Positions 17,920-59,394 of a stretch of DNA of 64,000 bases are shown in pieces. The stretch spans positions 1-64,000 of the forward strand of contig JAEEIA010000056.1 in NCBI GenBank assembly GCA_016281125.1, in the 5' to 3' direction. The translations under genes and the position numbers were made by a program. The stretch is from Oscillospiraceae bacterium (lineage in GTDB: Bacteria > Bacillota > Clostridia > Oscillospirales > Ruminococcaceae). Below the pieces are notes generated by a model. It was given only the letters and a program-made list of their open reading frames with translations, searched no databases and was not told the DNA's origin. Every line of letters begins with the position of its first letter. The first letter of the stretch is position 1.

Positions 17920-18375
17920 TTATCGGCTGCCGTACCGCGGCTGCGGGCGGACAGGCATGGGGTCGAACGAGGTGTTGAACGCGTAGGGATTGCCGGGATC
18001 GGGCGCGTATTTTGCAAGCTGCTCCTGAATCAGGCGCAGACCCTCGCCGAACCGCTGATAATGCACGATTTCGCGTTCCCGCAGGAACCGGATGACGTCG
18101 CGCACATCGGGATCATCAGCCAGCCGCAGGATGTTGTCATAGGTCGTGCGTGCCTTCTGCTCGGCGGCAAGATCCTCGTTCAGGTCGGTGATGGCGTCGC
18201 CGGTGGACTGGAACGTCGCCGCATTGAACGGAACGCCCGCTGCGGAAACCGGATAGATTCCGGCGGTGTGATCGACAAAATAATCCGCAAAGCCCTGCGC
18301 CTCAAGCTGCTCCGGCGTCAGCCCCTTCGTCAGCTGGCAGATCACGGCGGAAACAATCTCCATGTGAGAGAGCTC
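17920..18375 (-). CDS. cotJC: cotJC, 3' part (spore coat, manganese-catalase family), separated by prophage
   Basis: Encodes residues 65-215 of CotJC: E-LSHMEIVSAVICQLTKG, then DLNEDLAAEQKARTTYDNIL, then VIRFLREREIVHYQRFGEGL. These carry the second set of manganese-ligand residues (E/H in SHMEI and REREIVHYQ) of the manganese-catalase-like fold. There is no start codon of its own in the host portion; the open frame continues into phage DNA up to 18465. The N-terminal 64 codons lie at 59203-59394. Joining at the TC core (18374-18375 = 59201-59202) gives ...LLTDIGTEE-LSHMEI..., the usual family sequence. CotJC is a coat component made in the mother cell. As it stands the gene cannot make full-length protein unless the prophage excises. 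Confidence 0.93.
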   Translation of the reverse strand, partial: ELSHMEIVSAVICQLTKGLTPEQLEAQGFADYFVDHTAGIYPVSAAGVPFNAATFQSTGDAITDLNEDLAAEQKARTTYDNILRLADDPDVRDVIRFLREREIVHYQRFGEGLRLIQEQLAKYAPDPGNPYAFNTSFDPMPVRPQPRYGSR

Positions 18376-18396
18376 GTACACACATACATGATATAC
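18361..18396. other. attL, left attachment site of the prophage
   Basis: Host cotJC sequence (GTGAGAGAGC) meets phage sequence (GTACACACATACATGAT) at TC, 18374-18375. The TC dinucleotide is the only sequence shared with the right junction, as expected for a serine integrase whose crossover occurs at a 2-bp core. Confidence 0.88.
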
Positions 18397-18399
18397 ATA

Positions 18400-18429
18400 A
18401 AAAAGAGCGCAGGTCAATCGCCTGCGCTT
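18400..18429 (-). terminator. Terminator of the left-end repressor gene
   Basis: Stem AGCGCAGG/CCTGCGCT around a 7-nt loop; T-rich on both outer sides (CTTTTTT on the minus strand, TTCTTTTTC on the plus strand). It overlaps the stop codon of the HTH gene and insulates cotJC from phage transcription. Confidence 0.85.
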
Positions 18430-18632
18430 TCTTTTTCGTAGTAAATAATCGCATCCGGCTGGCAATCAAGCAGCCTGCACAGCGTTTCAAGGTTTTCCCA
18501 TGCAATCGGCTGATTCTCGCGCAGCTTTTGCACCGTGGATTCGCTCAGCAGTTTATCGCATCTGATGCGGTACGTTGTGAAGCCCTTGCTTTTCAGCGCT
18601 TCAAGCACATTGATTTTATATTTCAGTGCCAT
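18414..18632 (-). CDS. Small Cro/C1-type HTH regulator (left-end switch)
   Basis: 72 residues from ATG 18632, with GGAGGTGA upstream. The whole protein is a helix-turn-helix of the Cro/XRE type: ALKSKGFTTYRIRCDKLLSE, then TVQKLRENQPIAWENLETLC, then LLDCQPDAIIYYE. It is divergent from the gene at 18810. The intervening 177 bp contain two back-to-back promoters each overlapped by TACAC-N8-GTGTA, so autoregulation is likely. It is separate from the main lysogeny switch at the other end of the prophage. Confidence 0.85.
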   Translation of the reverse strand: MALKYKINVLEALKSKGFTTYRIRCDKLLSESTVQKLRENQPIAWENLETLCRLLDCQPDAIIYYEKESAGD

Positions 18633-18650
18633 AATATCACCTCCGATTTT

Positions 18651-18679
18651 ATTATACATCATAATGTACACGATTGCAA
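18651..18679 (-). promoter_or_regulatory. Promoter of the left-end HTH gene
   Basis: On the minus strand: -35 TTGCAA (18679-18674), 17-bp spacer, -10 TATAAT (18656-18651), then the ribosome site and ATG 18632. A TACAC-N8-GTGTA palindrome (18667-18684) covers the -35. Confidence 0.8.
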
Positions 18680-18684
18680 GTGTA
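18667..18684. promoter_or_regulatory. Operator 1, TACAC-N8-GTGTA
   Basis: Inverted repeat TACAC GATTGCAA GTGTA covering the -35 of the leftward promoter. The same half-sites with the same 8-bp spacing recur at 18735-18752. Probable binding site of the adjacent HTH protein. Confidence 0.7.
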
Positions 18685-18701
18685 TAAATGCACAAAATGA
18701 A

Positions 18702-18717
18702 GCACGAATGTTCGTGC
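18702..18717. promoter_or_regulatory. Perfect palindrome between divergent promoters
   Basis: GCACGAA-TG-TTCGTGC, a 7-bp perfect inverted repeat midway between the two TACAC-N8-GTGTA sites. It could be a third operator of different sequence or a site for a second regulator. Confidence 0.5.
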
Positions 18718-18727
18718 AGATTGCCTA

Positions 18728-18756
18728 TTGCGAATACACTGCATTTCGTGTATAAT
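18728..18756 (+). promoter_or_regulatory. Promoter of the rightward accessory genes, with operator 2
   Basis: -35 TTGCGA (18728-18733), 17-bp spacer, -10 TATAAT (18751-18756). The spacer is filled by TACAC TGCATTTC GTGTA (18735-18752), the second copy of the operator; binding there would block RNA polymerase. Confidence 0.8.
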
Positions 18757-18809
18757 AAAAATACGAACAAACGTTTCGGGCGAAAGCCCCTGCCGAAAGG
18801 AGCATGGAT

Positions 18810-19034
18810 ATGACACTCGCTGATATTAGCAACAACCTCGCAGCGACCTGCGAAAAGCTTGCAAGCCTGCTTGACAATGCGGCTTTCAAAGCCCTGATGC
18901 GTGCAGACCTTGATGAGTGCGAGCAGCTGGAAGAAGACCGCGACCGACTGGAAGATGCGGTTTACCGGAACGACCGTGACACGATGACCGAGCTGATTGC
19001 AAAGTATAATGAGATCGTGAAGCGGATGCAGTAA
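18810..19034 (+). CDS. Small acidic helical phage protein
   Basis: 74 residues from ATG 18810 (AAAGGAG at 18796-18802 is well spaced; ATG 18804 is too close). Mostly charged alpha helix (NNLAATCEKLASLLDN ... ECEQLEEDRDRLEDAVY). No recognised domain. First gene of the rightward accessory operon controlled by the HTH switch. Confidence 0.7.
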   Translation: MTLADISNNLAATCEKLASLLDNAAFKALMRADLDECEQLEEDRDRLEDAVYRNDRDTMTELIAKYNEIVKRMQ

Positions 19035-19084
19035 TTACAGACCGCCCCGCCGGAGGCATTGTATCCGGCAGAAAGGAAAAAGCT

Positions 19085-19888
19085 ATGGAAGCAAGGGAAA
19101 TCACAATCACCGACATTGAGGAAATGACCGAGCAGGACATCCGCGCAGCATACGCGCCGGATTTTGAAGCGGTACCGGTTAAGGGATACACCGTGTACCT
19201 CGTAGATGTTGCAGGCCGCTTCGGGTACAGTATGATTGTATTTGGTGACGGCCGACAGATTAGATGGGCGAATGATTACGAGCTGCATCACGACTATTAC
19301 ATGAAAGAGCACACACGCGCAGACCTGCGGGCGCTGTACATCAAGAAGGCTGAAGCACAGTTGTACACCGAGGAAGAACTTGCACAGCCGCTGAAGGACT
19401 ACCACGATTTTGAACGCCGCCGCCGGTACATCTCGGAACTGCTGCCGCTGAAGCGCGATTTCATGAGCATGTTTGGCCTTGCACGAAACGCGGAAGAAAA
19501 GGCCGCACGCGAAGCAGAACGCGCCGCGCATCCGGTAAACTGTGTATCAGCATACGGATACTTCGCGGAGGCCGACAAGGAATTTGCGCAGCACATTGAT
19601 GACTTGATGGTTGACCTTGTGACGCACCTTGAAAACACGAGGAACGATTACGAATACAACTTCAAAGCATTTTACTATGAACTCGGAAATCATGAATACC
19701 ACATCAACACGTATCAAGGAGATTGGGATACGCTCAGCGCCTTCGGACAAATACCGTGGAGAGGCCAGGGCGCAGAAGCGCGGGAGCAGTATTACAAAGA
19801 CCTCAGCTTCACGGAAACGCAGGTGAAAGCGTTTGAAGCAGCCCGCAAGCAGTTTTTGAAAGACGCGATGAAGAATGATTGGTATTGA
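19085..19888 (+). CDS. Hypothetical prophage accessory protein
   Basis: 267 residues, AAAGGA upstream of the ATG. The first 80 residues look like a beta-rich domain (VKGYTVYLVDVAGRFGYSMI VFGDGRQI). The rest is charged and helical, with many Tyr/His (YELHHDYYMKE). No function recognised. It is expressed with the small protein upstream from a regulated promoter and ends in a shared terminator, so it behaves like a lysogeny-expressed cargo gene. Confidence 0.7.
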   Translation: MEAREITITDIEEMTEQDIRAAYAPDFEAVPVKGYTVYLVDVAGRFGYSMIVFGDGRQIRWANDYELHHDYYMKEHTRADLRALYIKKAEAQLYTEEELAQPLKDYHDFERRRRYISELLPLKRDFMSMFGLARNAEEKAAREAERAAHPVNCVSAYGYFAEADKEFAQHIDDLMVDLVTHLENTRNDYEYNFKAFYYELGNHEYHINTYQGDWDTLSAFGQIPWRGQGAEAREQYYKDLSFTETQVKAFEAARKQFLKDAMKNDWY

Positions 19889-19903
19889 TACCAAAACAAA
19901 GAC

Positions 19904-19938
19904 AACCGGCGGAGCGCAATGCCCCGCCGGTTTTTTTA
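19904..19938. terminator. Terminator shared by convergent genes
   Basis: AACCGGCGG ... CCGCCGGTTTTTTTA: an 8-9 bp GC stem followed by seven T on the plus strand. It ends the rightward accessory operon where the leftward phage transcript also ends. Confidence 0.9.
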
Positions 19939-20271
19939 TGTTTCTTTGAAATGCCGCATTGTGATGCGATACAAGCGCGGACAAACTGCTTGCAGCGTGT
20001 TCATCAGATCGTCAACAACCGCAAGCACCTGCTCCGCGTCTTTGCCGTGTACTGCGCGTGAAAACTCTGTGCCGGATAGATATGTGATAGCCTCACGGGG
20101 CTGAATTTCAATCGCTGCCGCATACGACGCAGCGGAACTGTCAGGCGCTCCGTGCTGCATGTGATCTTGTATCGTGTAAAACGCGGCGAGCTTCATGCAT
20201 GTGTGCGCATTCGGGTTTCTCTCCCCCTGACACTCTGCGATTGCCTGACGGAGATCGGATTCAGTAATCAA
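19936..20271 (-). CDS. Hypothetical phage protein
   Basis: 111 residues. The likely start is a TTG at 20271 preceded by GGCGGTGA; no ATG fits. Helical, with a segment of small residues (SSAASYAAAIE). No known domain. It is the last gene of the leftward (minus-strand) transcript. Confidence 0.65.
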   Translation of the reverse strand: MITESDLRQAIAECQGERNPNAHTCMKLAAFYTIQDHMQHGAPDSSAASYAAAIEIQPREAITYLSGTEFSRAVHGKDAEQVLAVVDDLMNTLQAVCPRLYRITMRHFKET

Positions 20272-20287
20272 GGGGATTCACCGCCCT

Positions 20288-20647
20288 TTATACGTTTTCC
20301 AGTTCGCGGATAAAGTTGTGAAAGCGCTTGCGCGTGTGCTCGTCCGGTGCATCGTGCATCAGCTCGCGCAGCTCTGCAATCATGCCGTCACGGGCATCAT
20401 CGCGGGAATAGCGGCCATCACGGGAATATCTTCCCATACGGTCGCGGCGTTCGCTGTGCTCATAATGCGGGTATGTGTTGGAATACCCTGCCTCGTTCAT
20501 TGCGACAATCGTTTCAATCGACTTGATGCTGTGTGTCAGCTTGTCAACCGTGTCAAGGCTTCCGGCAGTCAGCTCACCTTTGCGAGTGATTTCTTCAAGC
20601 TCGCGGCAGAGCATGTCCTTCAGATCGTGGTACACCTGAATATTCAT
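20288..20647 (-). CDS. Hypothetical phage protein, charged
   Basis: 119 residues, GGCGGTGA upstream. N-terminal helix (YHDLKDMLCRELEEITRKGE) followed by an Arg/Asp-rich segment (ERRDRMGRYSRDGRYSRDD) and a helical end (DEHTRKRFHNFIRELE). A plan of this kind is common in Firmicutes prophages; function unknown. Confidence 0.7.
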   Translation of the reverse strand: MNIQVYHDLKDMLCRELEEITRKGELTAGSLDTVDKLTHSIKSIETIVAMNEAGYSNTYPHYEHSERRDRMGRYSRDGRYSRDDARDGMIAELRELMHDAPDEHTRKRFHNFIRELENV

Positions 20648-20662
20648 ACTGTCACCGCCTTA

Positions 20663-21472
20663 TCAAGCGCCGGTCGCCGGAGTTGAAGGATTTGCGACCA
20701 CGTATGCGGGAACCGGATACGGAGAGATGCGATTGACAAGATACTGCGTCTGCGCAGTATTGTCGGCCACCAAAGCGGCAGTCTGTGCCGTCTGGCTCGC
20801 CGCAAGCGCCTGCATATTGACCTGATTCTGAAGCGCAATGTTTGCGGCCTTCAGATTGTCGATTTCCTGCTGGCACATCTTGTCGAGGATTGCCTGCGTC
20901 TGCTCCTGAATTGCGAGGCGCGTTGCTGCGCCTTCCGTTGCAACTGCATTCCGTGTTTCAACGGTTTGCAGTCTGTTCTCGCAGCAGCAGGAAGCGAGCT
21001 GCTGCGAAAGGTTTGTCAGCCCTGCCGTGTTTGCAGTCTGCGCGTCAAAGCTGCGGTTCAGGTTTGCGATTTCGTTGCCGTACAGCTGCTGAGCGATTGC
21101 GTTCTGTGCGCCGGTGATTGCTGCCGTTGTACCGGCAAAGCCGCCGCAGAGTGCAGTCTGAATGTCGCCAAAGCCGCTCGTCACGGCGTTCTGGATGCCG
21201 TTGACCTGCGTGTTCAGCATCTGATCGCGGAAACCGTCGTTGATGTTCTGGCTGTTGTTCATCCACGGATACAGCATATCCATTCCGAGGCCTGCGCCCA
21301 TTGCTGCACCGCCGAAACCGCCGAGGCCGAAACCGCCCCATCCGCCGCCGAGAACCAGGAGCAGAAGAATCCACGCCCAGTCGCCGCCGAAACCGAAGCC
21401 GCCGTTTCCGTAAGAATTGCCCATAGGTGCGACCGGCATAACCATGCCGCCGCCTTCATCTGTGAGTGCCAT
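20663..21472 (-). CDS. Glycine-rich phage protein with membrane segment
   Basis: 269 residues from ATG 21472 (AAAGGA upstream). The N-terminus is glycine-rich and contains one hydrophobic segment (DWAWILLLLVLGGGWGG). The remainder is a long Gln/Ala/Asn-rich helical region, probably coiled coil, with a CCC triplet near residue 165. Proteins of this plan recur in gut Firmicutes prophages near the lysis module; role unknown. Confidence 0.7.
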   Translation of the reverse strand: MALTDEGGGMVMPVAPMGNSYGNGGFGFGGDWAWILLLLVLGGGWGGFGLGGFGGAAMGAGLGMDMLYPWMNNSQNINDGFRDQMLNTQVNGIQNAVTSGFGDIQTALCGGFAGTTAAITGAQNAIAQQLYGNEIANLNRSFDAQTANTAGLTNLSQQLASCCCENRLQTVETRNAVATEGAATRLAIQEQTQAILDKMCQQEIDNLKAANIALQNQVNMQALAASQTAQTAALVADNTAQTQYLVNRISPYPVPAYVVANPSTPATGA

Positions 21473-21583
21473 GATTTGTATTCCTTTCGTAGTAAGATTA
21501 TATTCAACCGCCCTGCGCACTGACGGGAATATGTGCTGAATATGTAAAGTGTAGTTATAATCTTTTCTGGAAAAGTTGAAAGT

Positions 21584-21808
21584 TTACCGGCGGAACATGC
21601 GGGAAATCATCTGCTGTGCCATGTTGAGCCGCCCCTGCGGCACTCTGCCGGATTGCATCAAGTGCTGCAAAATGCCTTGCGGATTATTATCCATACCCTG
21701 CGGAATCTGAATACCATGCTGCCGCAAAAGATTCATGCATTGTTCACGCGGGGTCTGCGGCTGTTGCTGCGGTGCGCTGCTGTTGAGCGTCTGGTAAATA
21801 TCATTCAT
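21584..21808 (-). CDS. Small Gln/Pro-rich phage protein
   Basis: 74 residues from ATG 21808 with GGGAG upstream. Rich in Gln, Pro and Met (SSAPQQQPQTPREQCMNLL; AQQMISRMFRR). No domain recognised. Overlaps the end of the gene above it, so translationally coupled. Confidence 0.65.
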   Translation of the reverse strand: MNDIYQTLNSSAPQQQPQTPREQCMNLLRQHGIQIPQGMDNNPQGILQHLMQSGRVPQGRLNMAQQMISRMFRR

Positions 21809-22187
21809 CGTTCTTGCTCCCCTCCCCGTATTGCGCGAGAATCGCCTGTATACGGCGTTCAAATTCTTCCCGCGTAATAAAGCCGGAAACATCTACTCCC
21901 GCCGCTGTCGCGCTGTCGGGCGCTGACACGGTCTCTTTGCGCTCAGTATAGTCAAATACACGTAGCGGCAGAGGCATTCCGGAGGCATCTGCGGTCTTTA
22001 TGAAAAAACGATTGCTTTCCGAATCCATCAGAAGAACGGATTGCCCTGCGCCGACCGGATGCGACTTTGCACCTGGCTCGCCTTGCACCCAAATCAATCC
22101 GCCTTGCTGCTGTGCCTGCTGAAGCGAATAATTCTGAACCATCGGCAACGGATACGGATATGGTGTCTGCATATATGGGAAAGCCAT
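21801..22187 (-). CDS. Hypothetical phage protein (Tyr/Pro-rich N-terminus)
   Basis: 128 residues. N-terminus MAFPYMQTPYPYPLPM, then a beta-rich centre with a conserved-looking core (GAGQSVLLMDSESNRFFIKTAD) and a helical C-terminus (ITREEFERRIQAILAQ). Such proteins occur downstream of lysis genes in related phages; function unknown. Confidence 0.7.
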   Translation of the reverse strand: MAFPYMQTPYPYPLPMVQNYSLQQAQQQGGLIWVQGEPGAKSHPVGAGQSVLLMDSESNRFFIKTADASGMPLPLRVFDYTERKETVSAPDSATAAGVDVSGFITREEFERRIQAILAQYGEGSKNDE

Positions 22188-22191
22188 ATTA

Positions 22192-22557
22192 TCACTCCTT
22201 CACGAAATAATAAATCGGTTTTTCTGCGCCGCTGTTCCAGCTGTCTATCCAGTTGCCTTCAACAACTGCGACAGCGTGCGTTCCTGTTCCGAGGATATAT
22301 CTGCCGTGCGGATGATCTGCTGCAAATTCTGCAACAGTTTGCCCGCTGATATTGTGTTTTGTGTATCCGTAAGATTGCAGGAACTCAGTCCATATTGAGT
22401 TGACATTGCCCCATATTGTGCAAGGGTATCCGAAAAGGCACAATCCCGCATATACCTTTTTCGGATGCATACCGGTCACGATGCTGATTGCCCGTATAAC
22501 GCAATCTCCGGTATTTACCCCGCACGGGTTCGCGTTGTACTGTATAAACACGTTCAT
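22192..22557 (-). CDS. Papain-like cysteine-peptidase-type phage protein
   Basis: 121 residues from ATG 22557. A cysteine in GDCVIRAIS at the start of a helix and a histidine in GTGTHAVAVVEGNWIDSW fit the Cys-His-Asp/Asn order of the papain/C39-like fold. The His-strand followed by a turn and W-D/N is typical. Length is minimal for a peptidase. It may mature phage proteins or act on the host; substrate unknown and the peptidase call is inference from motif order. Confidence 0.55.
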   Translation of the reverse strand: MNVFIQYNANPCGVNTGDCVIRAISIVTGMHPKKVYAGLCLFGYPCTIWGNVNSIWTEFLQSYGYTKHNISGQTVAEFAADHPHGRYILGTGTHAVAVVEGNWIDSWNSGAEKPIYYFVKE

Positions 22558-22823
22558 TCCCCTGATTTCATTATAAATAAAAAAAGGCACCCCCGCAATG
22601 TCGCGGGAGTGCCTTTTTGGTGCCGTTCTGGCTGTTCAGTTGTCAAGGTTGTTTTTGCTCGCGCAATTATTCGGGCGACCTGCCTGCGGGATAGAAAAAA
22701 CTCGGAGCTTAATTCGTCGTATGTTTTCCCGTCAATCAAGCGCCTCCGCAGTAAATTCCGGTCGCGCTCATTGTGGATTGTTTCGGCAATCATGCGTTCA
22801 ATTTCTGAATTTGTATACTGCAT
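22554..22823 (-). CDS. Sigma-70 region-4-like HTH protein
   Basis: 89 residues from ATG 22823 (AAGGAG upstream). The centre (LLRRRLIDGKTYDELSSEFF followed by LSRRQVARIIARAKTTL) is a region-4-type helix-turn-helix. No region 2 is present, so it is a small DNA-binding regulator rather than a sigma factor. The last 25 codons contain a strong intrinsic terminator, and its stop overlaps the start of the next gene. Confidence 0.65.
   Translation of the reverse strand: MQYTNSEIERMIAETIHNERDRNLLRRRLIDGKTYDELSSEFFLSRRQVARIIARAKTTLTTEQPERHQKGTPATLRGCLFLFIMKSGE
22579..22618 (-). terminator. Intrinsic terminator inside the 3' end of a coding sequence
   Basis: AAAAAGGCAC-CCCCGC ... GCGGGAGTGCCTTTTT: stem of about 12 bp with A/T flanks on both sides. 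Read leftward it is followed by at least seven T. It separates the lysis operon from the genes at 20-22.5 kb. Confidence 0.85.
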
Positions 22824-22859
22824 CATTTTCTCCTTTTGTGCTGCGGCGTAAAAGTGCGA

Positions 22860-24038
22860 TTATTTTGGATAGACGGTGCCTTTGTACTGCTTCCCGTCAA
22901 TAGTCAGTTCAATTTCAACTCCTTTTGCGGGTTCCGGCTCTGTATCCGCAGGCGGATGCGTGCTGCCGTATCCGTTGAGGCCTTTTGCCTTGATTTTTGC
23001 AGGATAATCGACATAGCAGTAATCGAGATCGCAGTCGCCTGTCACGCCTGCTGCAGTGCCGACCTTATATTGCCAAATTCCATACGCGCCGGAATACGGG
23101 CTTTTTTCGACATCCCAGTGCGCAAGCCAGATTGCATATCTGCTGCGGATGCTTTCATCCGTCAAGTTTGTGAGCGAGCTATACGAGCCATAAAGGCCGA
23201 CGAAATAGCCTGCTGCCTCTACGCGTTCGAGGAATGCACGGATAATTGCAGAAAGCTTTGTTTTGCCGAGTGCAAGCTGATCTTTCTCCTCAACATCGTA
23301 ATATATCGGATATTCAAACTGCTTGCCAGCAATAACAGCGATGCAGGCATCAGCTTCTCGGCGTGCTTCCTCCGGCGTTTTGGCGTATGAATACCAGTAA
23401 GCGCCGACCGGAATGCCGCGCTTTTTTGCGCCTGCATAATGGCTCTCAAACATGGAATCTTTCTGCGTGCTGTACCTGCCGTATCCGGCACGGACAATCA
23501 CGAATTCGGCGTTGACTGCATTCCAGTCAACTTTCTTTTGACAATAGCTGATGTCGATGCCCTTTTTCATAGGTGCCGCCTCCTTTCCGATACCAAAATA
23601 CTCGCGGAAATCGTTGCAGGGGATGCAGTAGTTGCTTCCTTGGGTTTCGTCGCCGTACCAATGCCCAACGCGTGTATCTACATGCGTATATGTCGCATTG
23701 ATTCGGGCGATGCCGGAAAATCCGACCTCCTGCGCAGCAATGCAGACAAGACGGCTGTCAATCGGCTGTCCGTCCTGGCCGATGCAGCAAATATCCGCCG
23801 CTTTGCCGTGGATGTGCTGACCGGTGCCAGACCCGCCGACGGCCTTGTCATGCGACAAGCACCGGAACCCGCTGCTCACGTTAATTGCAGTGCAATTGAG
23901 CGCGGTGTACAGCTTTTCGAGCAGCTCCACGAGCTTTTCGTCAAGCTGGAATTCATGCCGTGCGCTGCATTTGCACTGAAATTCCAGTGCGCGGAAGTGC
24001 GGAGAGATTTGCTCGGTGTCTCCGTAGTGATATGTCAT
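22860..24038 (-). CDS. Two-domain endolysin: M15 peptidase plus GH25 muramidase
   Basis: 392 residues, ATG overlapping the holin stop, with GGAGG. Residues about 1-150 are a zinc D-Ala-D-Ala peptidase of M15 type (VSSGFRC, GTGQHIHGKAADI with the His/Asp ligands, YTHVDTR). Residues about 155-350 are a GH25 lysozyme (GIDISYCQKKVDW with the first catalytic Asp; FVIVRAGYG; PIYYDVEEKD; GIWQYKVG). A short C-terminal linker ends in a small beta segment (ELTIDGKQYKGTVY). It should cut both peptide and glycan bonds of the wall at lysis. Confidence 0.92.
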   Translation of the reverse strand: MTYHYGDTEQISPHFRALEFQCKCSARHEFQLDEKLVELLEKLYTALNCTAINVSSGFRCLSHDKAVGGSGTGQHIHGKAADICCIGQDGQPIDSRLVCIAAQEVGFSGIARINATYTHVDTRVGHWYGDETQGSNYCIPCNDFREYFGIGKEAAPMKKGIDISYCQKKVDWNAVNAEFVIVRAGYGRYSTQKDSMFESHYAGAKKRGIPVGAYWYSYAKTPEEARREADACIAVIAGKQFEYPIYYDVEEKDQLALGKTKLSAIIRAFLERVEAAGYFVGLYGSYSSLTNLTDESIRSRYAIWLAHWDVEKSPYSGAYGIWQYKVGTAAGVTGDCDLDYCYVDYPAKIKAKGLNGYGSTHPPADTEPEPAKGVEIELTIDGKQYKGTVYPK

Positions 24039-24421
24039 TTTTCGCCCTCCTTGTCACTGTTGAAAATCCTCAGTTTTTTCAGGATCCCAGCCGCCCATTT
24101 TGCATCCGGATTTGTCTCAAGATAGTTTTCCAAGATCGAAACGATCTCCATGCATACAATGTAAGTGAAAACTGCTCCGGATGCGAAAAGCCCTGTGATC
24201 TCTGCAAGGCGCGGCTCATCATAATACTGTCCGAGCATACCGATGCCGATTTCAAGACCAATTGCGACAAGCATCACAACGATCTCCATCACCTTATGCA
24301 ATCCGCCTGTGCGCATCATTTTTGAGGAAACGTCCTGCTTGATGTATGCCTTAATGATGCCTGTGATAAAGTCTGCCAGTGCAAGACCAACAACGATGGT
24401 GATCATAATTATGTATTTCAT
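24035..24421 (-). CDS. Phage holin
   Basis: 128 residues. Three hydrophobic segments (about 4-22, 45-65 and 75-97) with a charged C-terminus (KKLRIFNSDKEGEK). The DFITGIIKAYI motif at the end of the first helix is typical of the phage_holin_4 (toxin-secretion/lysis) family. Directly upstream of and overlapping the endolysin. Confidence 0.88.
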   Translation of the reverse strand: MKYIIMITIVVGLALADFITGIIKAYIKQDVSSKMMRTGGLHKVMEIVVMLVAIGLEIGIGMLGQYYDEPRLAEITGLFASGAVFTYIVCMEIVSILENYLETNPDAKWAAGILKKLRIFNSDKEGEK

Positions 24422-24446
24422 ACGAAAGAATCCTCCTTTATTTTGA

Positions 24447-26424: not shown

Positions 26425-26436
26425 AAGCTCACCCCC

Positions 26437-30880: not shown

Positions 30881-30904
30881 AGTATCATTTCCCCTTTATG
30901 CAGT

Positions 30905-30938: not shown

Positions 30939-30950
30939 TCGTGTATTTAG

Positions 30951-47530: not shown

Positions 47531-47541
47531 ATTATCCCTCC

Positions 47542-48306: not shown

Positions 48307-48420
48307 TTTTGCATACCTCATATTTTGCATTTTACGGGCGATTTGCGGCGTTGTAAGTATGTGCCAGTATGTTGATACCTTTTTAGCATAAACTCGCCGG
48401 AAATCGCTTGCTCGTTTCTG

Positions 48421-50920: not shown

Positions 50921-50933
50921 CTATATCACATCC

Positions 50934-51419: not shown

Positions 51420-51420
51420 A

Positions 51421-52356: not shown

Positions 52357-52375
52357 AGTCTTTTCCTCCTTGTTT

Positions 52376-53245: not shown

Positions 53246-53256
53246 GCTGTTCCTCC

Positions 53257-53949
53257 TTAGAATAAATTCAACTGGACGCCGTCCAGGTCATCAACTCCCC
53301 ACTGTTCAGCCATTGCCTTTGCAATGCCTATGAATGTTCTCGATCTTACTTTTTTGTCGCCGCCAGCCCGTGAAAATCCCGCTTTGTCCGGATTGCCTTT
53401 ATTACGACTTGTTCCGCACGATACATACGGTTTGTAATCGGCAATGATGTTTGTTGGCTGCAACAGATTCAGACCTTTCAGCCACAAGCACGTTTTCTTG
53501 CTGTACGGCTCACCAAATTGAAATGGCTGAATCGACTGCGTGTATCGCGGCAACTCAAAGATGCTTGACGGTATCGGATTCTCAATACAGATTTTTTCAC
53601 AATCAGCGTTCCAGATTTCCATGAAAAACGCCTTTGCTTCAAGTCCCTTTTTATATCGTTCCTGATTCAGTTCACCTTTTCGCGGATAAAGCCGACACGC
53701 TCCGGCATTTGATAGGTATGTGCAAGGCGGGTGCGCTATGATAATATCCCATTTCGGAATATCATGAGTTACGCCGTCCATAGTCACGATTTGCCCCCCC
53801 TGAATTGCTTTCAGAGCATCACCGAGGATGTGCCTGTCCGGTCTGCCGCCTGACGGCTCCTGAATGTCGCAGCTAAAAGCATTGTGACCGCGTTCAAGAA
53901 AAGCAAGGCAAACGCGCTGTGATTCTTCGCAGGCTACCAGTACATTCAT
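53257..53949 (-). CDS. DNA cytosine methyltransferase-like phage protein
   Basis: 230 residues (ATG 53949; 53952 possible). MNVLVACEESQRVCLAFLER ... AFSCDIQEPSGG and AHPPCTYLSNAGACRLY resemble the AdoMet-binding motif and the PPC catalytic loop of C5-cytosine methylases, but the protein is shorter and lacks a clear target-recognition part. Phage homologues are annotated as methylases or as DNA-modification enzymes of unknown product. C-terminus has SRTFIGIAKAMAEQWG, like the last helix of the fold. Confidence 0.7.
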   Translation of the reverse strand: MNVLVACEESQRVCLAFLERGHNAFSCDIQEPSGGRPDRHILGDALKAIQGGQIVTMDGVTHDIPKWDIIIAHPPCTYLSNAGACRLYPRKGELNQERYKKGLEAKAFFMEIWNADCEKICIENPIPSSIFELPRYTQSIQPFQFGEPYSKKTCLWLKGLNLLQPTNIIADYKPYVSCGTSRNKGNPDKAGFSRAGGDKKVRSRTFIGIAKAMAEQWGVDDLDGVQLNLF

Positions 53950-53958
53950 CATTTCACC

Positions 53959-54609
53959 TCACATCGTAATCAACGCCGCAGGCGGCTTTCCGCTGTTCAC
54001 GCAGTCCATGAAGCGCATTTCCTGCTCACGCAGATACGCGATGTCATCCAGCACATCGTCACGCTCGATGCGGTAATCTCTGACCGCAGCGCGGAACTCG
54101 CCGCCCTTGTAATACCGTATATATGCTCGCAGTATTGCAAACTCAAAGCCGGTCGCGCTGAGCTGATGCAGCACTTGCGCATAATACCGGTCGGGGATGC
54201 CGCCTTCCCATTCATCCCACTGCGTTTTGCTTTGTATTGTGGTTGTTTTGATTTCAAGGATGCCGCGTTTACCGTTTCCGGTGTCATCCGTCAGCTCGCC
54301 GTCCAGCGTTGCAAATTGCCAGGGGAGCCGGTCGTTCACGTACATCCAGAACTCGTGATAATTCACGGTAAAATGCGGGTAATCAAGCACAAACAGCTCG
54401 CGGATGTGTTCCTCTGCTACCTTGCCAAACTTCACCGCCGGTTTGTCGCTGATGTCCTCAGGCACTTCCAGCCCGATCTTCTGCCGCCAAAGCACCAGGT
54501 TCGAGCAATACGGGTTCAGTCCGAGCACAGTTCCGGCATCACTGCCGCCGATGCCCTGCGCCTGCCGCATTGCGAGCCATTCTTCACGGGTCTGCGGTTT
54601 CAGTATCAT
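53959..54609 (-). CDS. YqaJ-type viral recombinase/exonuclease
   Basis: 216 residues. REEWLAMRQAQGIGGSDAGT is the YqaJ N-terminal motif; FATLDGELTDD and GILEIKTTTIQSKTQWDEWE hold the nuclease Asp and E-x-K, and YYAQVLHQLSATG the final motif. It digests 5' ends to supply single strands to RecT. Together with RecT and SSB it makes a complete phage recombination set. Confidence 0.92.
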   Translation of the reverse strand: MILKPQTREEWLAMRQAQGIGGSDAGTVLGLNPYCSNLVLWRQKIGLEVPEDISDKPAVKFGKVAEEHIRELFVLDYPHFTVNYHEFWMYVNDRLPWQFATLDGELTDDTGNGKRGILEIKTTTIQSKTQWDEWEGGIPDRYYAQVLHQLSATGFEFAILRAYIRYYKGGEFRAAVRDYRIERDDVLDDIAYLREQEMRFMDCVNSGKPPAALITM

Positions 54610-54758
54610 GCCGGTTCCTCCAATCTAAACTCGTAGCCGTGATTAAACGATTGCAGGAAGCGCACCATTTCCATCGCGTCATCGTGCGTGCTGATAATCT
54701 CCGTGTACAGCCTCCACTCTGCCGCAGTGCTTGTCCGGAAGTAAATTGCCCGCATCAT
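54606..54758 (-). CDS. Short phage protein between DUF3846 and the exonuclease
   Basis: 50 residues, ATG at 54758 overlapping the previous stop (ATGA) and its own stop overlapping the exonuclease start. MMRAIYFRTSTAAEWRLYTE ... MEMVRFLQSFNHGYEF. The coupling at both ends and open frame support a real gene. Function unknown. Confidence 0.65.
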   Translation of the reverse strand: MMRAIYFRTSTAAEWRLYTEIISTHDDAMEMVRFLQSFNHGYEFRLEEPA

Positions 54759-55072
54759 GCTGTACCACCTTCCGCAAAGTAGTCCACCGGAAAATTCAGC
54801 AGCGTCATAAAAGCATCCGGCACATCGCAGAACCCTTTGCCGTCGGAACCAACAATAACCGCGTCACCGTAAACGCCGGTTCCAGCAATAAGGCTTGCGA
54901 GGTTGTTATACGGTTTGTCTTTTGCGAGTGCAAACTGATCGCACAGCATATGTCCGCCGTCGCGCAGCGTAATCGTCTCAAAACTGCCGCCGAGCTTTCC
55001 CTGAATTGCTTTCGTAGTGTTTTCAAGGTCAATCATGTTGATTCTGAAGCCCTGAAGCATCATCGCCCGCAT
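54755..55072 (-). CDS. DUF3846-like phage protein
   Basis: 105 residues from ATG 55072 (AAGGAGG upstream). NTTKAIQGKLGGSFETITLR and NNLASLIAGTGVYGDAVIVG resemble the DUF3846 module found in phages and conjugative elements. Function unknown. Confidence 0.68.
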   Translation of the reverse strand: MRAMMLQGFRINMIDLENTTKAIQGKLGGSFETITLRDGGHMLCDQFALAKDKPYNNLASLIAGTGVYGDAVIVGSDGKGFCDVPDAFMTLLNFPVDYFAEGGTA

Positions 55073-55266
55073 GGTGCAGCCTCCTTCCATTCTTCCTCAG
55101 ACATACCGTAGATGCCGCAGATTGTTTCCTTGAATGCCGGATGCAGCTTTCTTTCGCCGCTGAGCATTCGCCAAATGTCCGAAGGTACCGGCAATCCGGC
55201 GCGTTCTGCCACCTGTACAGCCGTCAGGCCGCGTTCGTGCAGAAACTTTTTCATCGCTGCTTTCAT
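55060..55266 (-). CDS. Small XRE-like HTH protein
   Basis: 68 residues, GGAGG upstream. KKFLHERGLTAVQVAERAGL then SDIWRMLSGERKLHPAFKET fits a Cro-type helix-turn-helix. Overlaps DUF3846 and the membrane-protein gene. Confidence 0.72.
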   Translation of the reverse strand: MKAAMKKFLHERGLTAVQVAERAGLPVPSDIWRMLSGERKLHPAFKETICGIYGMSEEEWKEAAPCGR

Positions 55267-55475
55267 TCCGGTTTTCCTCCCATCTCGTCCACGATCTGCA
55301 AGCGCTGCACAACGCGCACCCGCATCCCGCGCACCATCTGCTCGAACCGGCGGTTTGCCATACGCTCCGCATCATCTGCCGCAATGTCGGAGTATATCGC
55401 CTGCATATGCCGGTGATACGTTGCACACAAACCGCCGAGCATACTAATCAGCATAATCAGTCCGAGTGCTTTCAC
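55263..55475 (-). CDS. Small membrane-anchored phage protein
   Basis: 70 residues, GTG start with GGAGG upstream. One N-terminal membrane helix (ALGLIMLISMLGGLCATY) and a charged helical cytoplasmic part (DAERMANRRFEQMVRGMRVR). Unknown function. Confidence 0.62.
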   Translation of the reverse strand: MKALGLIMLISMLGGLCATYHRHMQAIYSDIAADDAERMANRRFEQMVRGMRVRVVQRLQIVDEMGGKPE

Positions 55476-55491
55476 TGTTCCCGCCTCCTCG

Positions 55492-55647
55492 TCACTTTAC
55501 GTAATTGCGCCAATTCATAGCGAAGTAAGATTTTGCACGCTTAACCGCGCCCGTCTGCGGGTCAATAATCATCGGTCTGCGGTTCATGTGCTGCACGCCT
55601 TCCGCCTGCATCTTTGCACGCGCAATCGCTCTTGCAAGTTTTCTCAT
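55492..55647 (-). CDS. Short basic phage protein
   Basis: 51 residues from ATG 55647 (AAAGGAGG upstream). MRKLARAIARAKMQAEGVQH, then NRRPMIIDPQTGAVKRAKSY. Basic; possibly nucleic-acid-binding. Start overlaps the stop of the gene before it. Confidence 0.62.
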   Translation of the reverse strand: MRKLARAIARAKMQAEGVQHMNRRPMIIDPQTGAVKRAKSYFAMNWRNYVK

Positions 55648-55808
55648 AATTTTTCCTCCTTTTGATTTGCAGGCCATTCAATGCCGTTTCGCACGCACGC
55701 GATGTACAGCTCTGCAACAGCCCGTTTCACAGTTTCGATACGCGCCGCCTGTTCATCTGGTGTCAGGTTTGGCCGTATCACTCTTACAATGGGTTCCGGT
55801 GCGGGCAT
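55644..55808 (-). CDS. Short phage protein
   Basis: 54 residues, ATG at 55808 with AGGAAGGTG upstream; ends in ATGA overlap with the next gene. MPAPEPIVRVIRPNLTPDEQ, then AARIETVKRAVAELYIACVR. Below the size usually called, but the overlaps on both sides support it. Unknown function. Confidence 0.68.
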   Translation of the reverse strand: MPAPEPIVRVIRPNLTPDEQAARIETVKRAVAELYIACVRNGIEWPANQKEEKL

Positions 55809-56015
55809 TTATGCACCTTCCTTCCGCTGCATCATGGTGTCAATCGTCACCCCGAGCGTGCTCGCGATCTTCGCCGCAAGAATCACGTTCGGAGCTTTGG
55901 CACCGGCTTCATACTGCGCGATAATTGATTGTGATACGCCGAGGCTTTCTGAAAGTTCTGCCTGAGAAATCCCCTGCATCTCGCGCAGTCTTTTCAGGTT
56001 TTCGCCAAATTCCAT
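55809..56015 (-). CDS. Cro-like repressor of the lysogeny switch
   Basis: 68 residues from ATG 56015 (AAAGGAGAG upstream). MEFGENLKRLREMQGISQAE followed by LSESLGVSQSIIAQYEAGAK is a textbook XRE domain. First gene of the leftward (lytic) transcript and divergent from the CI-like gene, so by position it is the Cro-type regulator. Confidence 0.85.
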   Translation of the reverse strand: MEFGENLKRLREMQGISQAELSESLGVSQSIIAQYEAGAKAPNVILAAKIASTLGVTIDTMMQRKEGA

Positions 56016-56122
56016 GCAATCTCTCCTTTCGGTATTGACTTTTTGCGGCGTTTCGTGTATACTGTAATGTGATAGATTTTTAGCAAACACTCAACGCCCG
56101 CGCTTCCCATCGGTTCACGGAG

Positions 56123-56136
56123 CTACTTTTTTGTAG
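56123..56136. promoter_or_regulatory. Operator A, CTAC-N6-GTAG
   Basis: CTAC TTTTTT GTAG. It overlaps the putative -35 (TTGTAG, 56131-56136) of the rightward promoter (-10 TATATT at 56154-56159, 17-bp spacer) that would serve the CI-like gene. Confidence 0.72.
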
Positions 56137-56156
56137 TCCTGTATAACCATAGTTAT

Positions 56157-56185
56157 ATTATAGCTACATCAAAGTAGAAAGTCAA
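56157..56185 (-). promoter_or_regulatory. Early leftward promoter with operator B in the spacer
   Basis: On the minus strand: -35 TTGACT (56185-56180), 17-bp spacer, -10 TATAAT (56162-56157), nearly consensus. The spacer holds CTAC ATCAAA GTAG (56164-56177), so repressor binding would block this strong promoter. Confidence 0.88.
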
Positions 56186-56194
56186 TAGTTCAAG

Positions 56195-56208
56195 CTACAT
56201 TTTTGTAG
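56195..56208. promoter_or_regulatory. Operator C, CTAC-N6-GTAG
   Basis: CTAC ATTTTT GTAG, just upstream of the -35 of the early leftward promoter. Third copy; the centre-to-centre distances of the three sites are 41 and 31 bp (about four and three helical turns), suiting cooperative binding on one face. Confidence 0.75.
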
Positions 56209-56293
56209 ATTCGGCCATATGCACAATCGTCAACAGCGTTTTTTGTGCAAAATAAAAGCCGCCCACGCAGGACGGCTGAAAGGATATTTCTTT

Positions 56294-56623
56294 ATGTTTT
56301 GGGAGTTTTTCTGCGATCTATGCACTTCAATCGGAAAAAAGCCGAACACGGTTTGCCGTGAACTCGGCTTCTCAAATGCAACTGCTACACACTGGAAAAA
56401 CGGCACAACCCCAAACGGCGAGGCTCTTATAAAGCTATCTAAATATTTCGGAGTGTCAACCGACTGGCTTCTAGGCCTTGCAGAATTTCCGTCCGCGTAT
56501 TTGCCGGAGGACAAATGGAGGCAGGTGCTGAATCAGCTTTCTGCGGAATCGCTTGCAGAGCTGGAAAAGTATCTTGATTTTCTTCTGTGGAAACAAAGCC
56601 AAGAAGCTTCAGCTTCAGAATAA
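56294..56623 (+). CDS. CI-like lysogeny repressor (XRE HTH)
   Basis: 109 residues from ATG 56294 (AAAGGA upstream). FFCDLCTSIGKKPNTVCREL, GFSNATATHWKNGTTP and GEALIKLSKYFGVSTDWLLG form the helix-turn-helix; the C-terminal helix (AESLAELEKYLDFLLWKQ) may dimerise. It has no LexA-like peptidase part, so induction is not by RecA-stimulated self-cleavage. Confidence 0.82.
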   Translation: MFWEFFCDLCTSIGKKPNTVCRELGFSNATATHWKNGTTPNGEALIKLSKYFGVSTDWLLGLAEFPSAYLPEDKWRQVLNQLSAESLAELEKYLDFLLWKQSQEASASE

Positions 56624-56700
56624 TGCGCTCAATCTGCGCGGCTTTATCTGCGTTTGCCATATGCGCCCTCCTGAATTGCGTTTTACTGCTAAAAAGTAGT

Positions 56701-56726
56701 GTCGCCCCGACGCGACGCGGGGCGAC
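56701..56726. terminator. Strong GC hairpin after the CI-like gene
   Basis: GTCGCCCC-GACGCGACGC-GGGGCGAC, a perfect 8-bp stem. No T run follows on the plus strand, so termination is uncertain. The 250 bp between 56624 and 56900 hold no other gene on the plus strand. Confidence 0.55.
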
Positions 56727-56900
56727 TGTACCAGGTTACTGCGTGTGATTGTGCTGCGATGTATTGCTGCGACTGTGCTGCGTGGTAGAGGTTCGACCTG
56801 CCTCTGTCTATATCATAGCATATCCATAGACAAAGTGCAAGCTCATTTGAGTATCATTTGCGTATCAAAAAAAGCAACCGAAAAGGAGCGTGAGTATCAA

Positions 56901-57377
56901 ATGGAAATCGAAAAACTAAAACGCAAAACCATTCACCGGCTCAAACAGATTAAAACTGAACAGGGTCTGACAGTGCCGAAAATCATGGACTTGATGGAGG
57001 AACGCGGGCAATTCGTATCAGAGGCCACAATTAAACGTGTATTTGCCGACGGCTCGGAAGAACAGAATTTCAGGTATCAGGACAGCATCGCGCCGATTGC
57101 GGATGTGCTGCTTGATATTTACGGCGAAGGCGCGGGTCTGGATGATGCCGAATCCCTGCGGCGAATTGTACGCGAAAAGAACAAGCTGATTGAATTCCTG
57201 ATGATTAAACTGGATGAAAAGGAGGCGGAGTTTGACAAGCGAATAGCACTGTGCGAGGAACGGAAGGCATTATATGAAAAAACAATAGACCGCTTTGAAG
57301 TGCAGATCGCACGCAAGGATGAACTCATAGAGCGCCTGCTGAATACCTATTTGCCAGCAAAGGAGGATGCGAAATGA
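56901..57377 (+). CDS. HTH and coiled-coil phage regulator
   Basis: 158 residues from ATG 56901; the AAGGAG box is 13 bases away, farther than usual. N-terminal XRE-like domain (LKQIKTEQGLTVPKIMDLME, SEATIKRVFADGSEE) followed by a long coiled coil (REKNKLIEFLMIKLDEKEAE ... RFEVQIARKDELIERLL). It heads the rightward lysogenic operon that includes the integrase; possibly a regulator of integration or excision. Confidence 0.78.
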   Translation: MEIEKLKRKTIHRLKQIKTEQGLTVPKIMDLMEERGQFVSEATIKRVFADGSEEQNFRYQDSIAPIADVLLDIYGEGAGLDDAESLRRIVREKNKLIEFLMIKLDEKEAEFDKRIALCEERKALYEKTIDRFEVQIARKDELIERLLNTYLPAKEDAK

Positions 57378-57562
57378 CGAAGCGTTGTTTTGATTGCGGC
57401 TGTGAGGTAAAACCGGAAACAAGCGTTTGCCCCGATTGCGGCAGCACACATATCGAAACGATTGAATATATAGCGCCGCCTGAAAAGAAAAAGCACCCTG
57501 TTTTGATAATCCTTGCAATTCTGTTTGTGCTGTTCGTTCTGATTCCTATTTTGCGCCCGTGA
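57374..57562 (+). CDS. Zinc-ribbon membrane protein
   Basis: 62 residues. CFDCGCEVKPETSVCPDCGS is a C4 ribbon; one C-terminal membrane helix (HPVLIILAILFVLFVLIPIL). ATGA overlap with the gene before it. Similar ribbon-plus-helix proteins occur next to integrases in Firmicutes elements; function unknown. Confidence 0.72.
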   Translation: MTKRCFDCGCEVKPETSVCPDCGSTHIETIEYIAPPEKKKHPVLIILAILFVLFVLIPILRP

Positions 57563-57571
57563 GGTGATTAT

Positions 57572-59143
57572 ATGTTTATGCTGCCGGACTTAAAGCCGGA
57601 AGAAGTTTTGATATACCTGCGAAAGAGCCGGACGGATGATCCGGCTCTCACAGTATCGGAAGTCGTTGCCAAGCATGAGCAGATGCTTGATGATTATAGT
57701 ATGCGGGTATGGGGCGCACTTATTCCGGAGCGCAACCGCTTTCGGGAGATCGTAAGCGGTGAAACCATTTTCGCAAGGCCTGAAATACAAAAAGTGCTGC
57801 GCTTGGTCGAGCAGCCGTGTTTCCGTGCAATCCTGATTGTCGAACCGCAGCGATTGAGCAGAGGCGACCTTGAGGACATCGGCAGGCTTTCAAAGCTGCT
57901 GCGGTACACCGGAACAATCGTCATCACGCTACAATACAGCTATGATTTGACGGACGAGCGCGACCGTGATTATTTTGAACGGGAGCTGAAGCGCGGCAAT
58001 GAATTCCTCGAATACAGCAAAAGGATTATGATGAACGGCAGGAACCTCGCTGCGGAAAAAGGGTATTACACCGGCAGCAGAAAGCCGTTCGGATATACAC
58101 GCGTATTCAGAAAAGAAGGGAATCACAAATACCCGACGCTTGCAATCGTTCCGGATGAAGCTGCAATCGTGCGCACTATTTTCCGCATGTACGCAGAAGG
58201 AAACGGCGCGACAAACATATGCAGTTATTTGAACAGCATCGGAAGCAAGCCGGAGCGCGGTGATCTATGGTCGCCTCCTGCGATTTACCACATGCTCGAC
58301 AATCCTTTATATAACGGGAAAATCAAATGGGGATACCGCAAAACTGTGAAAAAGGTTGAGGACGGAGAAATAAAGCTGCATAATCCGAAGAACAAAGATT
58401 GCCCCGTGTATGAAGGCAAACACGAAGCAATCATTGATGATGTACTATGGAGCGCCGTGCGCAGCCGCAGGAACGCGAAGGACATCCCGAAGGTAAAAGT
58501 ATCCAAGCAACTGCAAAACCCACTCAGCGGGCTTGTCTGGTGTACGTGCGGCAGGATGATGATTCGCAGGCCATACAGCGGCAGAAGCGCCGACCGGTAT
58601 CAATGCCCGAATCAGGTTTACTGCGACACGGCATCATGCACGATGGACGAACTGCACGAGGCCGTCATCAAAGCGCTGCGCAGCGCCGTTGCAGATTTTC
58701 GCATAATGGTCGGGTCTGAATCTGATACACCAAAGCAGCACCGCACGGAAACGCTGAACATGCTGCAAACAAAGCTCGCGGATGCAGATCGCAAGGAATC
58801 CGCATTGTGGGAAAAGTTCGTTGAAGAAAACATGCCGCGCCGTGTGCTTGATGATCTGCTTGAAAAGCTGAACCGGCAAAGGGATGAAATCACAGAGCTG
58901 ATACGCAAAGAGCAGGAAGAACCGGCGGCACTGGATGTGAACGAACGCATTGTGACTTTCTGCGAAGCCATTGACGCACTCGGAAATCCGGATATGCCCG
59001 CAGCAGAAACAAACAAGCTGATGAAAGCCTGCATCCGGCGCATAACGTACAGCCGCAAGCGCGGAAGCAGGGAAACCGGGAGCAACAATCACGGCGGATG
59101 GAATGTTGAGCCGATACAGCTTGACATTGAGCTGAATTTCTAA
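57572..59143 (+). CDS. Large serine recombinase (phage integrase)
   Basis: 523 residues, GAGGTGA upstream. Catalytic domain starts LIYLRKSRTDDP, with the nucleophile Ser at about residue 19, then VEPQRLSRGDLEDIGRL (catalytic Arg). The recombinase domain carries KPFGYTRVF and ATNICSYLNSIGSKPERGDL followed by the HTH. The zinc-ribbon domain (GLVWCTCGRMMIRR ... YQCPNQVYC) is interrupted by a coiled coil (MLQTKLADADRKESALWEKF). It ends 57 bp before the right junction and should integrate at, and with a partner excise from, the 2-bp TC core in cotJC. Confidence 0.95.
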   Translation: MFMLPDLKPEEVLIYLRKSRTDDPALTVSEVVAKHEQMLDDYSMRVWGALIPERNRFREIVSGETIFARPEIQKVLRLVEQPCFRAILIVEPQRLSRGDLEDIGRLSKLLRYTGTIVITLQYSYDLTDERDRDYFERELKRGNEFLEYSKRIMMNGRNLAAEKGYYTGSRKPFGYTRVFRKEGNHKYPTLAIVPDEAAIVRTIFRMYAEGNGATNICSYLNSIGSKPERGDLWSPPAIYHMLDNPLYNGKIKWGYRKTVKKVEDGEIKLHNPKNKDCPVYEGKHEAIIDDVLWSAVRSRRNAKDIPKVKVSKQLQNPLSGLVWCTCGRMMIRRPYSGRSADRYQCPNQVYCDTASCTMDELHEAVIKALRSAVADFRIMVGSESDTPKQHRTETLNMLQTKLADADRKESALWEKFVEENMPRRVLDDLLEKLNRQRDEITELIRKEQEEPAALDVNERIVTFCEAIDALGNPDMPAAETNKLMKACIRRITYSRKRGSRETGSNNHGGWNVEPIQLDIELNF

Positions 59144-59172
59144 TGCCGACCAGGTGTCGGCATTGCTTTTTC
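59142..59172 (+). terminator. Terminator after the integrase
   Basis: AATGCCGAC-CAGGT-GTCGGCATT, a 9-bp stem with a 5-nt loop, followed by GCTTTTT. It stops integrase transcription before the cotJ genes. Confidence 0.92.
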
Positions 59173-59179
59173 GCACTAT

Positions 59180-59217
59180 ATGCATCATGTATGTTTGTGT
59201 TCTTCTGTTCCGATATC
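59180..59217. other. attR, right attachment site of the prophage
   Basis: Phage arm ATCATGTATGTTTGTGT meets cotJC sequence TTCTGTTCCGATATC at TC, 59201-59202. With the left junction this gives attB ...GAGAGC-TC-TTCTGTTCC... and attP ATCATGTATGTTTGTGT-TC-GTACACACATACATGAT. Confidence 0.88.
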
Positions 59218-59394
59218 TGTGAGCAGTCCCTGCAATTCTCTGAGCGGCATGGTGTACCGCTGATTCAGATAGCGCATGGACGCGCCTAACTCACCGTCCG
59301 GGCCGCCGAGCTGGCTCATCACCATTTTTGCGAGTCTGGCGTTCGGGCGGGCGATTTTCACAGGATATTGCAGTGCTTTTTCGTACTGAAACAT
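59185..59394 (-). CDS. cotJC: cotJC, 5' part, truncated by the prophage
   Basis: Starts at ATG 59394, directly after the cotJB stop, with AAAGGAGG. MFQYEKALQYPVKIARPNAR ... GGPDGELGASMRYLNQRYTM ... ELQGLLTDIGTEE is the first third of CotJC (manganese-catalase-family coat protein) including the first Glu ligands. After E65 the frame enters phage DNA and stops five residues later (HKHT-stop). The missing 151 residues are at 17920-18375. Confidence 0.93.
   Translation of the reverse strand: MFQYEKALQYPVKIARPNARLAKMVMSQLGGPDGELGASMRYLNQRYTMPLRELQGLLTDIGTEEHKHT

Follow-up and report, generated by a model that had tools for sequence, protein, structure and literature searches.

Several elements that split sporulation genes have been described. 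In Bacillus subtilis, the prophage SPbeta interrupts spsM (PMC4191935) and the prophage-like element skin interrupts sigK, as does skinCd of C. difficile with CD1231/CD1234 (PMC5025042). The non-phage element gin resides in gerE of Bacillus cereus (PMC5595907), while the prophage-like elements yin and vfbin occupy other sporulation genes, yabG of Clostridium botulinum and spoVFB, respectively (PMC10747680). In C. difficile, the prophage phi027 lies beside a gene similar to cotJC; that gene is adjacent to the prophage or downstream of its attachment site, with no split seen (PMC11222575, PMC12122855). The literature we found treats each such element singly, together with the one gene that it interrupts; within the scope of our search, which left subscription papers and bioRxiv preprints mostly aside, we found no description of a cotJC integration site, nor of a sporulation gene with several such elements. 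Here we analyze a 64,000-nt stretch of DNA (hereafter the window) from an Oscillospiraceae bacterium (assembly GCA_016281125.1, contig JAEEIA010000056.1, positions 1 to 64,000, forward strand), in which a 40.8-kb prophage interrupts cotJC, the gene for a spore-coat Mn-catalase, after codon 64 on the minus strand.

Like SPbeta in spsM, the window phage is a complete prophage in a late spore-envelope gene, with a large serine recombinase and exact restoration of its target on joining. It differs in that the target is cotJC and in that the mother-cell excision and directionality factor have been demonstrated for SPbeta (PMC4191935), whereas for the window phage they are predicted by analogy. As in the skin elements, a serine recombinase element splits a mother-cell gene (PMC5025042), but the gene interrupted by skin, itself only prophage-like, encodes a regulator, and the window holds a complete phage in the gene for a coat enzyme. 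Small cotJC elements with cargo in related genomes resemble gin, which likewise is not a phage, encodes serine recombinases and sits in a sporulation gene; gin, however, has three recombinases in 28.6 kb, whereas the small cotJC elements have one recognized recombinase each in 2-5 kb (PMC5595907). Finally, yin was described as unique, while cotJC is hit repeatedly at several sites (PMC10747680). We assign a probability of about 0.68 to the reading that the phage occupies an attachment site (attB) in cotJC, from which it would be excised in the mother cell, and that cotJC is a repeated target in the wider group.

The first-pass annotation had claimed that cotJC is split exactly; both the coordinates (Table 1) and the base-perfect join were reproduced. 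The two cotJC ends have only TC in common (plus strand; GA on the coding strand), and an in silico join at this shared core yields 648 nt, that is, 215 codons and a stop, with 0 bases gained or lost. Both junctions and the entire element are contained in one 180-kb contig, and the insertion is confirmed. The GA core falls where the gene encodes the Glu-Glu of IGTEELSH, a metal-binding motif, and the composite phage attachment site (attP) is an imperfect inverted repeat around it (14/17 core-adjacent positions match, 18/30 overall). The C-terminal half matches the Pfam domain Mn_catalase (8.9e-28) and the conserved metal-ligand residues, presumably E35, E65, H68, E136 and H169, are kept. The gene directly upstream of the N-terminal half is cotJB (Pfam CotJB, 2.9e-23), and cotJA is recognizable by its motif. 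The full cotJ promoter pattern is unmatched in the window, where the -35 element is degenerate and only a candidate -10 octamer, CATATACT, is present. No other cotJC match was found in the host genome at E<=0.001 (98 contigs, ~95.5% complete).

The gene content of the element indicates a complete temperate siphophage, in line with the earlier annotation: head, tail, packaging and lysis genes were identified (PHROGs), the integrase carries the three Pfam domains Resolvase, Recombinase and Zn_ribbon_recom, and the attachment-site arms are inverted around the dinucleotide. The retention of phage structural genes sets it apart from a defective skin-like remnant. With developmentally excised elements it shares three properties: a sporulation gene is interrupted within its coding sequence, an intact site-specific recombinase adjoins a junction, and joining at the shared core restores the frame in silico. 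Insertion of this kind is nothing out of the ordinary for phages with a serine integrase; the choice of target gene and the persistence of the pieces are.

Two IMG/VR contigs (L152 and L153) carry integrases 68% and 49% identical to that of the window, followed after ~110-140 bp by a homolog of the left-end gene of the window phage; no cotJC is present in the 13.5 kb examined of these contigs. This gene order looks like that expected of an unintegrated phage. When 11 other window phage proteins were compared with the L152 and L153 stretches, only the endolysin matched (in L152). In a phage collection, the best match to the integrase is 36% identical (Roseburia phage Jekyll), and the exact window attP was not found in the viral contig collection. 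Scanning genome contigs with the integrase identified three relatives, one of which (L154) lies beside cotJC residues 62-136.

Split cotJC genes are frequent in relatives of the host. cotJC was matched in 273/396 genomes of the same family, and classification from the listed matches covers 271 of the 273: the gene is in one piece in 131 genomes, and in 81 both sides of one or more breaks were found. Breaks with both flanks fall at site A (codons ~29-32; 33 genomes), site B (~62-65; 47) and site C (~133-136; 14), with two or more sites in 13 genomes. A fourth region, D, near codon 176, has an adjacent integrase in G083, G270, G190 and G239 and both flanks in G270, G609 and G429. Paralog rows (about 23-38% identity) were dropped, except for one 36% row of G248. 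None of the 54/135 tabulated genomes lacking both flanks at any one site was counted as split; some of these matches stop where a contig does, others resemble C termini that have diverged (ending near residue 185) and others are one-flank candidates. In a set of 148 family genomes, the control SpoIVA is whole in 127/128 matches, the exception being a fragment at a contig end, and RecA is whole in 139/144 (the others are G009, G015, G024, G049 and G066); cotJC in the same 148 genomes is whole in 47 and has both flanks in 31. In an order-level sample of 295 genomes, 234 match cotJC, at least 115 of them in one piece among the matches listed. Outside the family, at least 51/80 re-searched genomes, picked for weak or partial cotJC matches, show both flanks, and these represent 13 families. 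The first-pass annotation had proposed searching relatives for intact cotJC and for other elements at the same codon, and both exist: congeners of the host carry different elements at different cotJC sites, or none, and one congener (G374) carries an element at the window's site. cotJC is a recurrent integration hub, and the single insertion noted earlier is one case of a recurrent event.

A few loci have an odd geometry that may reflect rearrangement or assembly error. The cotJC pieces of G100 (L111) and G005 (L141/L142) are on opposite strands, so that inversion, not excision, would rejoin them, and those of G145 (L110) are in reversed order. In G132, a B piece on the same contig, also in reversed order, is 675 kb away and possibly unrelated.

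By junction alignment, the core of site A falls in the codons for LGGP, that of B1 (the window's site) in those for the Glu-Glu of IGTEELSH, that of B2 in those for the Gly-Thr-Glu immediately preceding it and that of C in those for Ala-Ala-Glu. These are conserved enzyme motifs, several of which presumably hold metal ligands. We gathered 49 integrases, one per genome and site, and 46 of them have a cotJC piece no more than 300 nt away; none was found in the DNA examined for G145 and G162. In the resulting tree, a single branch separates each of sites A (17 rows), B2 (11), C (4) and D (4) from all other rows (support 99-100); another branch sets apart B1 (13 rows) together with 3 reference rows (support 100). 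Site labels change 7 times on the tree, compared with 29.9 in shuffles; the labels derive from breakpoints, with G109 set to B1 by default in place of a junction alignment and D assigned by position only. As caveats to the tree, C and D are long branches that join each other, and the composition of 11 rows is atypical. Several distinct recombinase clades, five by this sequence grouping, have thus adopted cotJC, each faithful to its own site.

The sporulation genes of the host also bear on the fate of the phage. In this genome (3.9 Mb, 98 contigs), spoIVA is in one piece, and sigK is present but split: matches to the SigK profile cover its positions 3-114 on one contig and 107-224 on another, each scoring below the curated cut-off for the whole protein. 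A serine-recombinase open reading frame (ORF) that also matches the profile of the cotJC integrases abuts the 3' piece. From the piece positions and the recombinase, sigK appears to be split in a skin-like manner, which strengthens the comparison with skin and SPbeta drawn in the first-pass annotation. SigK-type promoters are enriched upstream of cotJ loci in the family (strict pattern, 9/38 vs 0.86 in shuffles; looser pattern, 49/64).

We suggest that the phage integrates through its own large serine integrase at attB in cotJC, and that the integrase with a directionality factor would excise it in the mother cell, the terminal cell, rebuilding cotJC when the cotJ operon is needed. The forespore would retain the prophage, as with SPbeta and spsM. 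By comparison with other loci, we favor an excision, probably within the mother cell, by which cotJC is rebuilt, and we predict the same for the window phage. Programmed excision explains the persistence of the pieces, the tiny elements and the joint decay of gene and integrase in one genome (G027; see below). The earlier proposal that the element could be developmentally excised gains from the split sigK, the many split-and-kept cotJC genes and the purifying selection on a cotJC interrupted by an element common to two species.

Several observations weigh against programmed excision. A simple motif filter found 0 mother-cell-type -10 elements directly upstream of small ORFs in the window phage (0.45 expected by chance), and a scan of the window for a CATA box, ribosome site and ORF gave no match, whether within the phage or across ~22 kb of host DNA. 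Control of the integrase by a mother-cell promoter was considered and rejected: a profile built from 37 cotJ promoter matches is not enriched upstream of integrases (35 vs 696 background windows, p=0.50), and a SigK-like match at 56813, before the integrase operon (score 12.9), coincides in part with an inverted repeat and is unconserved in L152 and L153. Over 19 small elements, a whole-element promoter scan gave 20 matches against 16.1 expected. For all genomes, the reading draws on sequence comparison, and excision is a prediction; the window insertion may be recent. In addition, cotJ of B. subtilis is dispensable, so loss of cotJC might be tolerated. Overall, the promoter statistics are weak or negative. 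For comparison, SPbeta and skinCd express their integrases during vegetative growth as well (PMC4191935, PMC5025042).

In SPbeta, sprB is transcribed from a mother-cell promoter whose -10 element is perfect, with the transcript beginning 20 nt upstream of the start codon, and sprA and sprB suffice for excision during sporulation (PMC4191935). Candidates for a directionality factor or recombinase under mother-cell control were found in G194 and G097, and none in the window phage. The element of G194 consists of an integrase and an ORF of 68 amino acids (aa) whose start lies 16 nt downstream of a CATAGTAT box, a layout matching that of SPbeta sprA/sprB (PMC4191935). Strong cotJ-type promoters precede the amidase genes of G097 and G129 by 34-36 nt. 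The scan for CATA box, ribosome site and ORF gave 27 matches in 38 element stretches vs 5.4 in first-order Markov sequence, a null that lacks real gene starts, and only single strong cases were used. A short motif upstream of integrases recurs in two elements only. A single common small protein as directionality factor was rejected, as the clusters among 3,922 small ORFs were mainly cotJA, cotJB, fragments of cotJC, and reading frames that overlap integrases or cotJC.

Elements with both ends on the same contig span from 2.0 kb (G194) to 91 kb (G013). Those of 2-5 kb have an intact integrase and no recognized phage structural genes. Small elements carry host-like cargo beside the recombinase: an amidase with an SH3 domain (G097, G129), AhpC/TSA and YaaA peroxide proteins (G384), a MATE transporter and Na/H exchanger (G055), superoxide dismutase (G483), nucleoside phosphorylase (G619), an endonuclease (G610) and a chemotaxis receptor (G270). 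Oxidative-stress genes ride inside elements of a catalase gene in G384 (L104 3180-4459) and G483 (L174 1104-1730). Two B-site elements have a small ORF with a LERIDNN motif just before the integrase (L104 1329-1562, L171 10523-10888), possibly an accessory factor.

In G609, cotJC is in five pieces on one contig (205516 to 288981, 83 kb), and every junction has a recombinase. The ORF lengths in codons are 514 (site A), 590 and 526 (one at either end of B), 550 (C) and 510 (D). The ends of site B differ in recombinase and core type (B2-like 5', B1-like 3'), perhaps because two elements are in tandem; the 38 kb examined between them yielded no other recombinase. We lean, by a narrow margin over even odds, toward a broader proposal in which cotJC is a gene in pieces across the order: up to four sites would be occupied at once by elements with dedicated recombinases, all of which the mother cell would delete to assemble one ORF, and the elements would range from live phages to domesticated 2-5-kb cassettes. 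Such cassettes would comprise a recombinase and a directionality factor, some with an amidase or superoxide dismutase under mother-cell-type promoters.

The alternative that survives best is turnover in the absence of a program, in which good sites are frequently entered and left by phages, the insertions are young and the halves are intact as the gene was recently whole. The phage-like contigs in which the left-end gene follows the integrase with no cotJC, the varied site occupancy among congeners and the lack of a visible mother-cell promoter in the window phage fit this account. We nevertheless consider it unlikely, given the 2-5 kb elements with intact integrases and no recognized phage structural genes, the genes interrupted at up to four sites together with all pieces open, and an element shared by two species. 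The latter, a colinear A element of 3.2 kb in G483 and G418 of one genus (91.2% identity over 4,052 nt), splits a cotJC with a ratio of nonsynonymous to synonymous substitution rates (dN/dS) of 0.031 over 191 codons (dN 0.019, dS 0.618); the integrase ratio is 0.091. Tempering this case, dS of the two cotJC parts is unequal (0.11 and 1.01) and identity drops from 97% to 85% along the locus, from which we conclude that recombination has touched it. In G513, G408 and G576, cotJC dN/dS is 0.014-0.022, with the G513 and G408 integrases too diverged to call the element inherited.

The first-pass annotation had offered as its alternative that the phage simply abolishes CotJC, cotJC being a dispensable safe harbor with nothing to restore it. 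This we hold to be less likely still than turnover, and it fits poorly with the split sigK, the many split but maintained cotJC genes and the selection on the cotJC with a shared element. The judged cotJC parts have no stop or frameshift and keep every covered ligand in 38/39 split family genomes, and the same holds in 15/15 further genomes of the order, so that 53/54 split genes are intact where judged; scoring covered residues away from the breaks in the pieces examined, which leave out C-terminal pieces of, for example, G011, G129, G194, G219 and G005. The only decayed gene, with two stops and a change of frame, is that of G027, whose integrase is interrupted too. In the window genus, nine computable cotJC dN/dS ratios range over 0.049-0.095; those of the window (0.049-0.068, values that cannot date its insertion) resemble that of the intact pair G246/G108 (0.055).

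An assembly or binning artefact joining a phage to non-contiguous cotJC halves, to which a 98-contig draft and the few loci of odd geometry might point, can be set aside as highly improbable, since both junctions and the element share a contig, the same site is occupied in G374 and other genomes, and splits occur within single contigs of better assemblies (G338, G609, G429, G013).

In this group a coat gene, not a regulator, serves as the attachment site of five recombinase clades, in a single order but in no fewer than 14 of its families, and one gene can hold several insertions. The coordination of excisions thereby becomes testable, as do the questions of why phages settle in late mother-cell genes and how they become minimal excision cassettes. 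The loci also supply many sets of recombinase and attachment site with one common target gene, and they caution that cotJC may appear in annotations as separate fragments. If true, the gene-in-pieces proposal would describe a bacterial counterpart of programmed internal-sequence elimination, concentrated on one coat enzyme.

Table 1. Features of the window and of the split host sigK, with the basis of each assignment where one applies.
Feature	Position	Strand	Basis or remark
cotJC 3' half, codons 65-215 and stop	17920..18375 (core dinucleotide included, 18374-18375)	-	Mn_catalase
Prophage inside cotJC, 40.8 kb	18376..59200	.	between the two core copies
HTH_26 Cro/C1-type protein, left end	18414..18770	-	
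Left-end gene	20288..20647	-	homologs just past integrase in two IMG/VR phage contigs (circular order), no cotJC between
Endolysin	22860..24038	-	
Tail / minor head protein	25033..26424	-	
Distal tail protein Dit	27333..28064	-	
Tail tape measure protein	28055..30229	-	
Major head protein	33323..34510	-	
Head morphogenesis protein	35939..37528	-	Phage_Mu_F
Portal protein	37535..38920	-	
Terminase large subunit	38937..40199	-	
RecT	51421..52356	-	
158-aa ORF heading apparent integrase operon	56901..57377	+	reading only
62-aa ORF just before integrase, zinc-ribbon-like with hydrophobic stretch	57374..57562	+	reading only
Large serine integrase, 523 aa, site-B1 clade	57572..59143	+	stops 57 bp before core
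cotJC 5' half, codons 1-64	59203-59394 (59201..59394 with shared core dinucleotide at 59201-59202)	-	
cotJB	59395..59808	-	open frame with CotJB domain, directly upstream of cotJC 5' half
cotJA (77 aa)	59636..59869	-	reading only: LAMAYVPFQ.W motif as upstream of other cotJ loci
Candidate cotJ operon -10, CATATACT	59916..59923	-	identical octamer in cotJ promoter match of congener G374
Host sigK pieces	L158 1-1884 (contig C15) and L159 1495-1842 (contig C83)		

Two further proteins of the window phage have unusual domain content. The C-terminal part of the major head protein (33323-34510) matches an S-layer SbsC-type domain, and the stretch at 40914-42428 encodes a phage protein combining a ParB N-terminal domain with an N6/N4 DNA methylase domain.

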